From: Bacteroidetes bacterium GWA2_31_9
GTDB lineage: Bacteria > Bacteroidota > Bacteroidia > Bacteroidales > GWF2-33-38
Direction of reading: 5' to 3'
NCBI GenBank assembly: GCA_001768975.1
Contig: MEND01000230.1
Span: forward strand, 13,311 to 46,645
Length of the DNA: 33,335 nucleotides
The notes beneath the pieces were generated by a model. That model searched no databases. It was not told the DNA's origin and saw only the letters and a list, made by a program, of their open reading frames with translations. A program made the translations under genes and the position numbers. This document shows, one piece after another, positions 13,193 to 32,508 of the stretch (position 1 is the first letter of the stretch; every line of letters starts with the position of its first letter).

Positions 13193-14404
13193 ATGATAAA
13201 ATCAATTCAAATAAAAAACTTTAAATCTGTAGTTGACCTTTCTCTTGATTTGGGTGTATTCAATGTTTTGATAGGAGAAAATGGTTGTGGTAAGTCAAAT
13301 GTTTTAGAAGCAATTGCCTTTGGAGCAGCAGCTAGCAATGACAAGCTTGATTATGAGTATTTTGGAAACAGAGGCATTAGAGCTACAAATCCTGAATTTA
13401 TGTATTCAGCATTTACGAATGGTAAAAAAAAGAAGTCAATTGAAGTTAACATTACTACTGATGAAAGACAATATCCGTATAATTTAGAGCATGAACAAAA
13501 CAATACTAAAAGATGGGTAAACAAAAATAAAGAAGTTGCGTTGAAAGAAATTGAAAAGATTTTTAAAACGTTATATCTTGAAAATGATGAAGAAAAAAGA
13601 GCAAAAGTTTTAGCTGAAATTAGCGAAGGCAAAGATGAAATACTTTTGATTTCTGAATTATTAAAACCCTATAGAAGTGAAAATGATTTAAAAGAATTTT
13701 TTGGCAAACTTTATCCAACATTATTAGAGAAAGCATTTTCTAATAATGAGATTTCTGAATACATGATTTATTCTCCCGAACAAAGTCATTTAAGAAAAAC
13801 TGACGAAACAACACCTATTTATCCACTTGGAAATAAGGGAGAAGGACTTTTTCAATTCATTAAGGAACTTGCTTATGACAAGAAGAACAAGATAACATTA
13901 AGTAATATTAAAAATAATTTAAATCTTCTTGATTGGTATGAAGACTTTGACTTACCTGAAAATTTAATGACTAATGAATTTTCTCTGAAAATAAAAGACA
14001 AATATCTTTACGAAAATCTTAAATACTTCGACCAACGTAGCACTAACGAAGGTTTTTTGTTTTTGCTTTTTTATTCTACATTATTTATTTCTAAGATAAC
14101 TCCTTCTTTTTTTGCTATTGACAATATTGATGCATCATTTAATCCAAAATTATGTATGCAGTTGACAATGAATCTTGCAACTTTAGCAAAAAAACATAAA
14201 AAGCAAGTAATTGTTACAACGCAAAACCCTGCTATCTTAGATGGTTTGAATTTAAAAGACGACAATCAACGTTTATTTGTAATAAGTAGAAATAGTGATG
14301 GACATACAAGAGCAGAAAGAATAAATTATAATGAAAAACGAACGATGAGATTATCTGAGGTTTGGACAAAAGGTTTCATTGGAGGACTACCCGAAAATTT
14401 CTAA
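13193..14404 (+). CDS. AAA family ATPase (OLD/RecF/SMC-like), putative defence component
   Basis: 403 aa; IKSIQIKNFKSVVDLSLDLGVFNVLIGENGCGKSNVLEAI (Walker A), Walker B-like SFFAIDNIDASFNPKL, C-terminal VIVTTQNPAIL. Confidence 0.88.
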   Translation: MIKSIQIKNFKSVVDLSLDLGVFNVLIGENGCGKSNVLEAIAFGAAASNDKLDYEYFGNRGIRATNPEFMYSAFTNGKKKKSIEVNITTDERQYPYNLEHEQNNTKRWVNKNKEVALKEIEKIFKTLYLENDEEKRAKVLAEISEGKDEILLISELLKPYRSENDLKEFFGKLYPTLLEKAFSNNEISEYMIYSPEQSHLRKTDETTPIYPLGNKGEGLFQFIKELAYDKKNKITLSNIKNNLNLLDWYEDFDLPENLMTNEFSLKIKDKYLYENLKYFDQRSTNEGFLFLLFYSTLFISKITPSFFAIDNIDASFNPKLCMQLTMNLATLAKKHKKQVIVTTQNPAILDGLNLKDDNQRLFVISRNSDGHTRAERINYNEKRTMRLSEVWTKGFIGGLPENF

Positions 14405-14418
14405 TTATATAATTGTAA

Positions 14419-15090
14419 ATGAAATTTGCACTAATCACAGAAGGAATATCTGAGCATAGAATTATTAGACATATTCTTGAGAAATTTTTCAAAGATAAAG
14501 TCCCATTTATTAGACAAATTCAACCACAAATATTTAATGAAAAACAAATTTCAATTGGTAGTTGGAATGAAGTATTGAAGTATTGTGGAAGAACAGATGA
14601 TTTAAAAGAAATTTTTAACAATAATGATTATTTAATAATTCAAATTGACACCGACAAATCACAAACAAAACCATTTAGCATTAGTCATTCAAAGATAGAT
14701 AATACATTAAAATCAGTTGATGAATTATGCAATGAAGTTATTGTGAAGTTAAAAAGTATTATTAGCCTTGAAATTATTAAAGAACACGGTAATAAGATTT
14801 TCTTTGCAATTTGCGTACATTCTATTGAATGTTGGTTACTACCTTTATTATATACAAACAATCTTAAGTCAAAAACACATGGTTGCATTGATACACTTAA
14901 CACTGAATTAATAAAAAAAAATATTCATATAATTCCAAATGGAAATAAAAACAATCATAATGCAATTAGAACTTATGAGACAATATTAAAAATTTGGAAA
15001 AGAAAACAAGATATAATTGAATCATCTAAACATAATGAGGGATTTAAAAAGTTTATTAATTCGCTAAAAACAATTGATTTAACAAAATAA
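14419..15090 (+). CDS. TOPRIM-like protein (DUF4276/RloB-like), partner of the upstream ATPase
   Basis: 223 aa; N-terminal ALITEGISEHRIIRHIL (motif Glu), YLIIQIDTDKS (DxD), ICVHSIECWLLPLLY; 14 nt downstream of the ATPase. Confidence 0.65.
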   Translation: MKFALITEGISEHRIIRHILEKFFKDKVPFIRQIQPQIFNEKQISIGSWNEVLKYCGRTDDLKEIFNNNDYLIIQIDTDKSQTKPFSISHSKIDNTLKSVDELCNEVIVKLKSIISLEIIKEHGNKIFFAICVHSIECWLLPLLYTNNLKSKTHGCIDTLNTELIKKNIHIIPNGNKNNHNAIRTYETILKIWKRKQDIIESSKHNEGFKKFINSLKTIDLTK

Positions 15091-20013: not shown

Positions 20014-21039
20014 ATGGACGCTTTAAGCAACATATCACAAATAAGTTTTACGCAAATCATATTGCCTTTTTTGGTTGCACTAACTTCTACATTAGTAATA
20101 TTGCCTTATGTAATAAAAGTTGCCAGAGATAAAAAATTATTTGATATACCAAACGAAAGAAAAATTCATACTGCATTAATTCCACGTTTTGGAGGTTTTG
20201 CAATATTCTTTGGATTAATTGTCTCTGTATTAATGTTTATGGATTCATTTGGAAGCTTTAGCTTCTTTTATTTATTTACCGCAATCATAATATTATTTTC
20301 AATAGGAATAATAGATGATGTTAAAGGAATGAGAGCAATGGACAAATTTTATGTTCAAATTTTAGCCGCTTTCATTGTAGCCTATGGAGGATTTCGTTTA
20401 GAATCATTATATGGATTATTTGGCATATATGAATTACCTATTGGAGTTCAGTATATTCTTACAACTTTAATAATTGTTGGTGTTACTAATGCCTATAATT
20501 TAATTGACGGAATTGATGGATTAGCCGGAGGAATTGGACTAATAAACTTTGTAGTACTAGGAATGATATTTTTACATCTTAATAACTTATCATTTGCTAT
20601 CATATCATTCGTTTTTGCTGGGTCAATTCTTGGCTTTCTTACTTTCAATTTTCAACCTGCAAAAATATTCATGGGCGATGCAGGATCGTTAATAGTTGGT
20701 TTTTCGATGATTTCAATAGGCATATATGCTATTAATAACAATGAGATTGTAAGCAATATGCGATATGTTACAAACATCAATATTATCATTGGGAGTATTG
20801 TGTTTTTACCAGTAATAGATACTTTAAGAGTTTTCTTTTTACGTTTAATTCACAAAAAATCACCATTTACACCAGATAAAAATCATATTCATCATATATT
20901 ACTAAATCAAGGATTAAATCACAGAAATAGCTCATTGATGCTATATGCTGCAAATATATTAATCATAATAATGGGCTTTATTTTAAAAGATATATCAATT
21001 GACAAAAGCTTTGTTAATCTATTTTATTTATCACACTAA
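20014..21039 (+). CDS. MraY/WecA-like undecaprenyl-phosphate sugar-1-phosphate transferase
   Basis: 341 aa; IPNERKIHTALIPRFGGFAIF, GIIDDVKGM, TNAYNLIDGIDGLAGGIG, FMGDAGSLIVGF, HHILLNQGLNHR. Confidence 0.93.
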   Translation: MDALSNISQISFTQIILPFLVALTSTLVILPYVIKVARDKKLFDIPNERKIHTALIPRFGGFAIFFGLIVSVLMFMDSFGSFSFFYLFTAIIILFSIGIIDDVKGMRAMDKFYVQILAAFIVAYGGFRLESLYGLFGIYELPIGVQYILTTLIIVGVTNAYNLIDGIDGLAGGIGLINFVVLGMIFLHLNNLSFAIISFVFAGSILGFLTFNFQPAKIFMGDAGSLIVGFSMISIGIYAINNNEIVSNMRYVTNINIIIGSIVFLPVIDTLRVFFLRLIHKKSPFTPDKNHIHHILLNQGLNHRNSSLMLYAANILIIIMGFILKDISIDKSFVNLFYLSH

Positions 21040-21050
21040 AAATTAAAATT

Positions 21051-21488
21051 ATGGGACAGCAAGATATTATAAGTATGATAGTCAATAATGATGTTAAAGC
21101 ATTACAAGTGTTTTTTAGTGATGTTGCCGGAAACGAAAAGCAAGTATCATTAGAAACAAATGATATTGACAACTTAATGAACAACAATGTTTGGGTTGAC
21201 GCATCAGATGTTACAGGATTACTTAATATTTGTGAAGACGAATATCTTTTAAAGCCTGACTTAAAGTCGTTCAGATTAGAAAGTATAAATGGAAATGGAA
21301 AGAAAAAAGCTATTTTCAGATGTACTGTTTTTGAGCAAAATGGTTCATTACATGAATTAAATATAGAATCAACTTATGTTGATTTATGCAAAATTGCAAA
21401 AAATACAGGCATTAATGAAATTGATTTCTTTAATGTTAATTTCAGCAATAACATGGTTACTCCAATTATAAAAAAAATAAATAATTAA
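21051..21488 (+). CDS. Standalone glutamine-synthetase N-terminal (beta-grasp)-like domain protein, no catalytic domain
   Basis: 145 aa; VKALQVFFSDVAGNEKQVSL, VWVDASDVTGLLNICEDEYLLKPDLKSFRL, AIFRCTVFEQNG, IAKNTGINEIDFFNVNF follow the GS-I N-terminal order VKFVDLRFTD.G..., FDGSSIGGW.GI.ESDM.L.PD, IRCDI.EP, YLRSTGI.D...F. Confidence 0.7.
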   Translation: MGQQDIISMIVNNDVKALQVFFSDVAGNEKQVSLETNDIDNLMNNNVWVDASDVTGLLNICEDEYLLKPDLKSFRLESINGNGKKKAIFRCTVFEQNGSLHELNIESTYVDLCKIAKNTGINEIDFFNVNFSNNMVTPIIKKINN

Positions 21489-21492
21489 GATT

Positions 21493-21633
21493 ATGATAAC
21501 GTTAATGGCGAATGTAGATTTTTTTGTTTTAGTAGTAATTACACTATTAGGAAGCTTAATAACTATTAAGACTACAATTAAAATAATAGGCTATTTATTA
21601 AGCAAGTTTTCTAGAAAAAGTCAGAAGATTTGA
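21493..21633 (+). CDS. 46-aa putative single-TM membrane microprotein
   Basis: ATG at 21493, TGA at 21631-21633: MITLMANVDFFVLVVITLLGSLITIKTTIKIIGYLLSKFSRKSQKI; starts 5 nt after the 145-aa CDS; hydrophobic core with basic C-terminus. Confidence 0.55.
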   Translation: MITLMANVDFFVLVVITLLGSLITIKTTIKIIGYLLSKFSRKSQKI

Positions 21634-21771: not shown

Positions 21772-22332
21772 ATGCATCAAGCAGAAGAAACAGAATTAGT
21801 TAATAGGTGTCTGAAAAATGATGTAGAAGCTCAAAATAAGCTTTATAAAACTTATGCAAGAAAGATGTATGCTGTAAGCTGGAGGTTTGCAAGAGTAGGA
21901 GCAGAAGCAGATGATATTCTTCAAGAAGGTTTTATAAAAGTTTTTACAAAGCTAAATACATATAGACACGAAGGTTCTTTAGAAGGTTGGATTAGAAGAA
22001 TAATTGTTAATACCGCTTTAACTTATATAAAAAAGCATGGCGAGTATAAACAAGAGATTGACATTGAGAATATTGGCAATTGCGATATTGTAGAAGATGA
22101 AGCAATTGCAAATTTATCAAAAGAAGACATTTTGAAGTTAGTTCAGGAATTACCTGATGGAAAAAGAATGGTGTTTAACCTTTATGTTTATGAAGGATAT
22201 AGCCATAAAGAAATTGGCGAAATGTTGAATATAAATGAAGGAACTTCTAAAGGGCAGCTGTCAAAAGCAAAACAAATATTAAAAGAAAAATTGGAAAAAA
22301 TTAATATAAAGCTTTATGAAAGAGTATATTAG
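21772..22332 (+). CDS. RNA polymerase sigma-70 factor, ECF subfamily
   Basis: 186 aa; ADDILQEGFIKVFTKLNTYRHEGSLEGWIRRIIVNTALTYIKK (region 2), LPDGKRMVFNLYVYEGYSHKEIGEMLNINEGTSKGQLSKAKQILKEKL (region 4). Confidence 0.95.
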   Translation: MHQAEETELVNRCLKNDVEAQNKLYKTYARKMYAVSWRFARVGAEADDILQEGFIKVFTKLNTYRHEGSLEGWIRRIIVNTALTYIKKHGEYKQEIDIENIGNCDIVEDEAIANLSKEDILKLVQELPDGKRMVFNLYVYEGYSHKEIGEMLNINEGTSKGQLSKAKQILKEKLEKINIKLYERVY

Positions 22333-23041
22333 AAAAGATGTTGGGGATTATTTTTTCGATCGTACAAACGATTTCGAAATGTCTCCTCCTGAGCATATTT
22401 GGGAAAATATTCGTAAGGAAATTACTATACCTCAAGCCACTGTTAAACCACATTTTATTAGGTTTTGGCAATACTATACTATTTCTGCTATAGTTGGAAT
22501 AATTGCTATTTCAGCTTATTATTATTCAAATAATAGTAATAATTCTAATGTTATTGCTGAAAATATTGCTGTTACTACTCAAGAAACTACTGTTAATAAT
22601 ATTTTAAACGAATCATCTTCAAATACAATAGTCGAAGCTGAGAATAAAGAAGAAGTGCCAGAAATTAAATCAGAGATTGTTAAAGTTAAAAATGAAGATG
22701 CAGTTATTAAAAACGATTATATTGCACCAGTTGAGAAAGTTGTATCAAATAATTCAAATACAGAAAAAGCAAATGTTGCTTTAAATACTAAAGTAAGTGA
22801 AACTCAACCTTCAGTTATTAAAAGTGTTAAAAAATATAATATAAGTGCATCTGCTTTTGAAAATGTTAAGCAAATATTATTTGTAAATAATTTAGGCGAA
22901 AAAAGCATTATCGTAAATAATCCTAACCCAAATAAATTTGGCTTTTTTGAGGTTGATGTTACTAAATTAGTATCAGGTAGATATGAGATTAGAGTTGTTA
23001 CAGATAAAGAAGAAATTAAGCATAAAATAGAAAACTTTTAG
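22316..23041 (+). CDS. Putative transmembrane anti-sigma factor
   Basis: 241 aa; 17-nt overlap with sigma gene; cytoplasmic N-terminus (PPEHIWENIRKEI), single TM YYTISAIVGIIAISAYYYS, extracytoplasmic beta-rich C-terminus. Confidence 0.75.
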   Translation: MKEYIRKDVGDYFFDRTNDFEMSPPEHIWENIRKEITIPQATVKPHFIRFWQYYTISAIVGIIAISAYYYSNNSNNSNVIAENIAVTTQETTVNNILNESSSNTIVEAENKEEVPEIKSEIVKVKNEDAVIKNDYIAPVEKVVSNNSNTEKANVALNTKVSETQPSVIKSVKKYNISASAFENVKQILFVNNLGEKSIIVNNPNPNKFGFFEVDVTKLVSGRYEIRVVTDKEEIKHKIENF

Positions 23042-31419: not shown

Positions 31420-32508
31420 CTAATTTATTCGTTGTTTAATTTTCATTAATCTTGTAAAAAGCCTATTTATCTGGGAAGTATGCTTTTCAAATTTTAATGG
31501 TTGATTATTTATTATTGTTTGTAAATCTTTTTCAGTAAGATTTAAATAATTTAAAACATTTTGATAGTTTTCTGGTAAAGATGTAATGTCATCATTTGAA
31601 TATAATTCTAATGCTTTTTCTCTTGAAATTTCGTCTCGTCTAATCATATTGCTATATTGACATAGCCTTCTCTCGTAACCATATATTTTATTTCTCACAT
31701 AATTTGTTAGTGGTTCTGCAATGCAATCAAAATGTTTTGAATATTCTTTACTTTTATCTTCTTTCCAATCTAATTCCTTTGCAATAATTTCTCCCATTTC
31801 TTTGTCAGTTGGATTCTTGATATAAAACAATGGTTTAACTTCTTTAGCCATTTTTCCTAACTTTTTATTAATTGATAATAGAAAAAGATTGAGATTTGGA
31901 TAAATTAAAAAATCATTTATTTCTTTTTTTGTCAAATCTGTATATTTTCTTAATATGTATTTAAATCTAACAATATCTTGTATATTATCTGGAACAAAAG
32001 AATCTTCTTCTAATGGAGATGTACCATAAAGAATAATTGGACAAGAATAATTTTTTGCTACCTTTATGATATTGGCCTTTGTCCCTATATCACAAGCACC
32101 ACAAATGTCCCCTGAATATAAAAGTGTATTTCTATAAATCTTTTTTTGAACTTCTTTATCTGGTTTACAAAAAACATGTTTTACTTTTGTAATTTCAATG
32201 GCTCTTTGTATATTTTCTAATGCTATTGGACTAAATAATCCATTATCATATGTCATTGCTACTACATTTAGATTATAAACATTTACCGCTAAATGAAGGA
32301 TATAAGTACTGTCCTTACCTCCGCTTAATGGGACTAACGCATCATATTTAGTTGCTTTATTTTTTGCGTTTTGCAATATATTTAAAAATTGATTTTCACC
32401 TATTGGTTTATATTTTTTTTGTACTACACACAAGGAACATGCTCCGTCCTCATTGAAAGAAATTCCTGGATATTTGTCATTTATAATACATTTACTACAA
32501 ATTTTCAT
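31420..32508 (-). CDS. N-acetyl sugar amidotransferase (WbpG/PseA-like, PP-loop ATPase)
   Basis: 362 aa; N-terminal Cys-rich MKICSKCIINDKYPGISFNEDGACSLC, PP-loop ALVPLSGGKDSTYILHLAV, ICGACDIG. Confidence 0.88.
   Translation of the reverse strand: MKICSKCIINDKYPGISFNEDGACSLCVVQKKYKPIGENQFLNILQNAKNKATKYDALVPLSGGKDSTYILHLAVNVYNLNVVAMTYDNGLFSPIALENIQRAIEITKVKHVFCKPDKEVQKKIYRNTLLYSGDICGACDIGTKANIIKVAKNYSCPIILYGTSPLEEDSFVPDNIQDIVRFKYILRKYTDLTKKEINDFLIYPNLNLFLLSINKKLGKMAKEVKPLFYIKNPTDKEMGEIIAKELDWKEDKSKEYSKHFDCIAEPLTNYVRNKIYGYERRLCQYSNMIRRDEISREKALELYSNDDITSLPENYQNVLNYLNLTEKDLQTIINNQPLKFEKHTSQINRLFTRLMKIKQRIN

Follow-up and report, generated by a model that had tools for sequence, protein, structure and literature searches.

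What does the N-terminal domain of glutamine synthetase (GS) do when it is encoded by itself? The question is raised by a 145-aa open reading frame of Bacteroidetes bacterium GWA2_31_9, located in a 33,335-nt stretch of contig MEND01000230.1 (hereafter, the window). In an earlier note this frame had been described as an orphan GS N-terminal domain that retains an active-site Asp and stops before the catalytic half. Profile and structure comparisons bear out that description: judged by its sequence and predicted fold, the frame encodes a freestanding GS-I N-terminal beta-grasp domain, termed the orphan below.

21051..21488, plus strand: orphan GS N-terminal beta-grasp domain, 145 aa (PF03951 at 1.9e-10, AlphaFold2 and Foldseek, dN/dS, five orthologues)

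The frame has an ATG start and begins 11 bases past the stop of a WecA-like gene. Residues 14-95 matched positions 1-81 of the 82 in the Pfam Gln-synt_N profile (PF03951) with an E-value of 1.9e-10 and 40.7 bits, above the curated cut-off of 33.4 bits. An orthologue from a sister genus scored 47.6 bits, and the three orthologues from a second family were either below the cut-off (29.3 and 24.5 bits) or gave no match. Among the NCBIfam models, just the first 94 of the 462 positions of GlnA were covered, and a search of PDB sequences returned exclusively GS enzymes, headed by B. subtilis GS (1.8e-8, residues 3-121). AlphaFold2 models, predicted without templates and possibly leaning on the program's GS training, reached a pLDDT of 85.3 and a pTM of 0.80 with six orphan sequences, and a pLDDT of 71 with three. 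All 50 of the Foldseek matches listed for the orphan model were GS chains (E ~1e-8 to 5e-7, probability 1.00, TMq ~0.6), with GS-I chains of Paenibacillus, Methanosarcina, Staphylococcus and Bacillus at the top. The rmsd over the whole model was large (~8-9 A), probably owing to a differing placement of the C-terminal helices; one alignment confined to 102 columns gave 2.2 A. The profile and Foldseek comparisons with GS, which the earlier note had proposed as checks, are thus in agreement with it. Among its motif correspondences, the pairing of 'IAKNTGINEIDFF' with 'YLRSTGI' is weak: it lies beyond the residues that Pfam matched and is not conserved in the second family. Its mention of an 'ATP-grasp-like' catalytic domain needs correcting, as the catalytic domain of GS does not have the ATP-grasp fold.

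The orphan carries PF03951 alone, without the catalytic C-terminal domain (PF00120). No catalytic domain was found 3' of it and, as had been observed before, the next ORF (21493-21633) encodes a 46-aa membrane peptide instead. In the window genome (288 contigs, ~91% complete), the sole Gln-synt_C match sits on contig C234, inside a complete GlnA with an N-domain of its own.

1390-2895 of locus L001 (G000:C234): full-length divergent GlnA, 501 aa, the one Gln-synt_C match genome-wide

This GlnA is divergent, scoring 206.6 bits, below the type I equivalog cut-off of 429 bits; frames of a length close to its 501 residues are widespread across the order. The orphan was 21% identical to its N-domain across 38 residues (E 0.8) and was nearer to Bacillus-type GlnA (24% over 123 residues). 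As an enzyme (glutamine synthetase type I), the orphan was rejected: PF00120 is absent, and the DGSS signature and the Arg62 position are lost, the D50-loop Asp being retained.

Orphans were detected in all three genomes examined from the family of the window, namely the window genome (G000), G001 of the same genus and G002 of a sister genus, in the same place and with the same length (86% and 34% identity to the window copy in G001 and G002, respectively). These are the same-length homologues for which a search had been suggested. In a second family of the same order, three genomes of one genus (G455, G645 and G711) encode divergent orphans of 97-122 aa (25-27% identical). An intact glnA at this locus, which would have marked the ORF as a fragment, was never found in relatives; the same short gene was present there instead. 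As the matches of an order-wide PF03951 search were listed only in part, orphan profiles were also run across the order (393 and 374 genomes, ~200 genera), and it was these that brought up the three second-family orphans. Each of the shorter frames that were read in the PF03951 search was either a GS-II (311-343 aa) or a broken glnA (G024 and G054), and none was an orphan. Samples drawn from the whole class (395 and 375 genomes) contained no further orphans save one probable chance match, in G085 (E 9e-5), which lies within a frame of 1024 aa that Pfam did not recognise. A match in G683 (E 8e-17) was rejected as a full-length Bacillus-type GlnA. A scan of genome contigs returned the G001 contig (Bacteroidetes bacterium GWA2_30_7) as its sole match. 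Plasmid records gave just weak matches to GS, which carried glnA or GS-family annotations; the matches from phage records were likewise weak ones to GS, in unannotated faecal contigs, and a scan of IMG/VR for the orphan found nothing.

Between G000 and G001, dN/dS was 0.065 for the orphan, 0.077 for wecA, 0.124 for the sigma factor gene and 0.27 for the membrane peptide, and the orphan is kept intact by purifying selection. In the sample of six genomes from two families, the orphans form one clade separate from all GS N-domains (support 100/99), and the catalytic half was probably lost once, in their common ancestor.

The conserved residues of the orphan are concentrated in the region of the former D50 loop.

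21189..21257, plus strand: D50-loop region, residues 47-69 (VWVDASDVTGLLNICEDEYLLKP), with invariant D50, D53, G56, L57, C61, L67 and P69
21231..21233, plus strand: codon of invariant Cys61, orphan-specific, Cys being absent here from the aligned GS sequences
21321..21323, plus strand: codon of invariant Cys91, where Cys is also common in GS

Ten columns are invariant over the six orphans (D24, D50, D53, G56, L57, C61, L67, P69, C91 and V93), and seven of them fall between D50 and P69, a stretch of 20 residues. The loop Asp of GS-I, said earlier to be retained, corresponds to D50 and is among them. The DGSS of GS is replaced by DA(S/C)D in the orphans (DSSD in G001), G51 and S53 being lost in all six, and the Arg62 position is occupied by Asn, Ser or Phe. 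In GS, the D50 loop is the sole active-site element supplied by the neighbouring protomer (PMC11957540), and the loop Asp serves to bind ammonium and to remove a proton from it (PMC7948447); the Arg that is replaced in the orphan touches both the catalytic Glu304 and GlnR in B. subtilis GS (PMC9249791). A re-used binding surface would be expected to look like this, with the one-time contact loop conserved but its chemistry altered.

The immediate neighbours of the orphan are constant as well. In all six genomes, the gene order was a WecA-like phosphotransferase, the orphan, a membrane peptide of 43-55 aa, an ECF sigma factor and an anti-sigma-like protein. This conserved unit was absent from the earlier note.

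20014..21039, plus strand: WecA/MraY-family phosphoglycosyltransferase, 341 aa (Glycos_transf_4, 6e-39), first gene of the unit
21493..21633, plus strand: single-helix membrane peptide with a basic tail, 46 aa, 3' of the orphan in six of six genomes
21772..22332, plus strand: ECF sigma factor, 186 aa (Sigma70_r2 1.9e-14, r4_2 2.1e-13, TIGR02937 2.7e-29)
22316..23041, plus strand: anti-sigma-like single-pass membrane protein, 241 aa, overlapping the end of the sigma gene and following it in six of six genomes

The WecA-like gene was located upstream of the orphan in every case, the two being adjacent or overlapping. Its product matched the TIGR02380 WecA model at 4.8e-51, below the model cut-off. 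In a WecA tree, in which the program flagged one long branch, the proteins linked to orphans lay on one side of a branch (96/89); on the other were 24 WecAs from the order that have no orphan beside them, among them the second WecA that G455 encodes. Together, the orphan clade and the linked-WecA clade point to a single origin of the five-gene unit. The membrane peptides consist of a hydrophobic segment followed by a tail with a net charge of +5 to +6 and a core (I/L/V)(K/R)T..K, and are 63% identical within the genus. The window copy reached 19.9 bits against Pfam DUF3149, below the cut-off of 23.2, and the peptides constitute a previously undescribed family; their profile detected no copy beside paralogous sigma genes. 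The anti-sigma-like protein, for which no Pfam match exceeded the cut-off, has an N-terminal PPExxW motif, one transmembrane segment and a conserved C-terminal domain; similar proteins come after other ECF sigma genes of Bacteroidota. No orphan lay next to any of the further WecA genes (~30) and sigma genes (25) whose surroundings were inspected.

The spacing and surroundings of the unit differ between the two families. In the window, G001 and G002, the sigma gene starts only after a gap of somewhat more than 100 bases beyond the membrane peptide. In the second family, the five genes are probably transcribed together, since they follow one another with almost no gaps. Promoter and terminator scans gave results at about the level of chance. 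Flanking genes in the first family encode a divergent glycosyltransferase, a thioredoxin-like protein and argS; those in the second, as read from the sequences by eye, encode a sodium-solute-type transporter with ExbB/ExbD/TonB-type proteins (G455), cytochrome bd-type proteins (G645) and others (G711).

The reading that we favour, at a probability of roughly 45%, is that the orphan would have been repurposed: it would serve the WecA-like enzyme and the membrane peptide as a cytosolic subunit, accessory or regulatory in role, with the former D50 loop as its binding part. A soluble cytosolic protein, it would be kept at the membrane through the small peptide; its loop (D-A-S-D...C) would bind either a small ligand or the WecA-like enzyme, at the cytosolic face that holds the active site, and this binding would tune the first step of the lipid-linked glycan. 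The active sites of WecA-family enzymes face the cytosol, so that a soluble domain could reach them. Preference is given to this reading because the coupling with wecA is the closest, the orphan-linked WecAs group together and the peptide occurs only with the orphan; the constant linkage to wecA, in six of six orphan genomes, supports it. We infer a binding of the orphan to WecA or the peptide, a working role for the loop, and regulation rather than stabilisation. A simple salt-bridge tether is not supported by the charges, because the second-family orphans are slightly basic, in contrast to the acidic window orphan (pI 4.6).

Membership in the operon fits a link to the sigma pathway equally well. 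The main rival to an accessory role at WecA is a role in the sigma/anti-sigma circuit, where the orphan, with the peptide, would be a cytosolic adaptor modulating anti-sigma release in response to envelope state or a ligand. The sigma and anti-sigma genes downstream of every orphan, and the probable single transcript of the second-family genes, accord with such an adaptor; the gap before the sigma gene in the window, G001 and G002, however, places the tight coupling with wecA, and paralogous sigma/anti-sigma pairs of the same order manage without orphan or peptide. We regard the adaptor as unlikely. Unlikely as well is a stand-alone small-molecule or redox sensor, in which the loop with Cys61 and Cys91 would bind a metal, an amine or an oxidant and the output would be WecA or sigma. 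It would account for two invariant Cys residues, one of them orphan-specific, near the retained ammonium-binding Asp, and the wider beta-grasp assemblage, GS-N included, has been proposed to bind solutes (PMC1949818), but the cytosol is normally reducing. A more novel reading is also unlikely: the GS loop, freed from the enzyme, might have become the part with which a regulator tethered to the membrane senses a ligand or partner, and this regulator would link the nitrogen or redox state of the cell with the first surface-glycan step, with its own sigma and anti-sigma in the operon.

Other readings keep the orphan closer to GS. It might bind GlnA in place of a subunit N-domain, as an inhibitor, decoy or reader of nitrogen status, the coupling with WecA then being a nitrogen check on glycan synthesis. 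The Asp that enters the active site of the next subunit in GS is retained, and small GS-binding regulators (sP26, GlnK1 and the cyanobacterial inactivating factors) are known from published papers. Yet the orphan scarcely resembles the N-domain of its own GlnA; G51 (to A or S), S53 and the Arg62 position are altered in all six orphans; nitrogen genes are absent nearby, the constant neighbours being envelope genes; and a lone domain must replace the ring contacts that hold the N-domain in GS. Binding to GlnA is thus distinctly improbable. The GS-binding regulator or decoy of the earlier note is not supported by the dissimilarity to GlnA, the loop changes and the envelope neighbours, whereas none of the findings conflicts with its 'repurposed scaffold'. 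The retained Asp50 would also suit a split GS, assembled from the orphan and a separate catalytic-domain protein; the only Gln-synt_C domain of the window genome is, however, inside the full-length GlnA, and a gap left by ~91% completeness would not explain the altered loop, which leaves a split enzyme very improbable indeed. That the orphan is a decaying fragment of a former glnA is refuted by its dN/dS of 0.065, its conserved length and place in a second genus, the same operon in a second family and the absence of an adjacent remnant, and its probability is next to nil, even though truncated or frameshifted glnA genes do exist in relatives. The latter were observed at loci L014 and L015 (in G024 and G054): G054 encodes parts of 147 and 351 aa side by side and G024 an N-terminal piece only, reflecting either assembly error or pseudogenes.

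The orphan was compared with the closest known systems. With the N-domain of GS-I (PF03951), it shares the fold, the motif order, the F.D..G hairpin, the D50-loop Asp, the post-loop L.P and the Cys-bearing strand; it differs in lacking the catalytic domain, in the DA(S/C)D sequence, the lost Arg62 position, Cys61 and the operon. The gamma-glutamylmethylamide synthetase GmaS is a GS relative likewise with a changed D50 loop (PMC7948447). GmaS, however, is of full length, with its catalytic domain kept and the Asp lost, the reverse of the orphan. Like the orphan as proposed here, sP26 and GlnK1 of Methanosarcina and the cyanobacterial inactivating factors are small proteins that act via protein contact; to our knowledge, none of them is a GS domain. 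The partner protein retains the DD, NLIDGIDGLAGG and HIHH motifs of the WecA/TagO/MraY phosphoglycosyltransferases, and no accessory GS-N domain was described for that family in the literature searched.

Elsewhere in the window, three further loci were recorded.

13193-15090, plus strand: AAA_21 ATPase, 403 aa, followed by a DUF4276-like protein, 223 aa
8986-9616, minus strand: HepT-like RNase, 112 aa, and nucleotidyltransferase, 99 aa, in overlapping genes; the latter matches PADLOC PDC-S09
31420-32508, minus strand: 362-aa protein with a PP-loop-type 'PLSGGKDSTYIL' motif and Cys pairs, only a weak QueC match

The first pair matched PADLOC PDC-M31A (2.2e-71) and PDC-M31B (8.7e-11) and is a candidate two-gene anti-phage system. 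The second looks like a HEPN/MNT toxin-antitoxin pair, and the 362-aa protein is possibly similar to N-acetyl sugar amidotransferases (WbpG/PseA).

GS is among the most ancient enzymes and its N-domain has been regarded as inseparable from it, and in a 2007 survey of the beta-grasp fold GS showed little diversity of domain architecture (PMC1949818). The domain itself is known; a stand-alone, selected form in such an operon was not described in the literature searched, an absence that weighs little, as few subscription papers were covered. A conserved freestanding lineage, strictly linked to a WecA-like enzyme and to a membrane peptide not described before, would show that the GS N-domain can live alone with another job, and the unit would hint at an unknown control of lipid-linked glycan synthesis in Bacteroidota.
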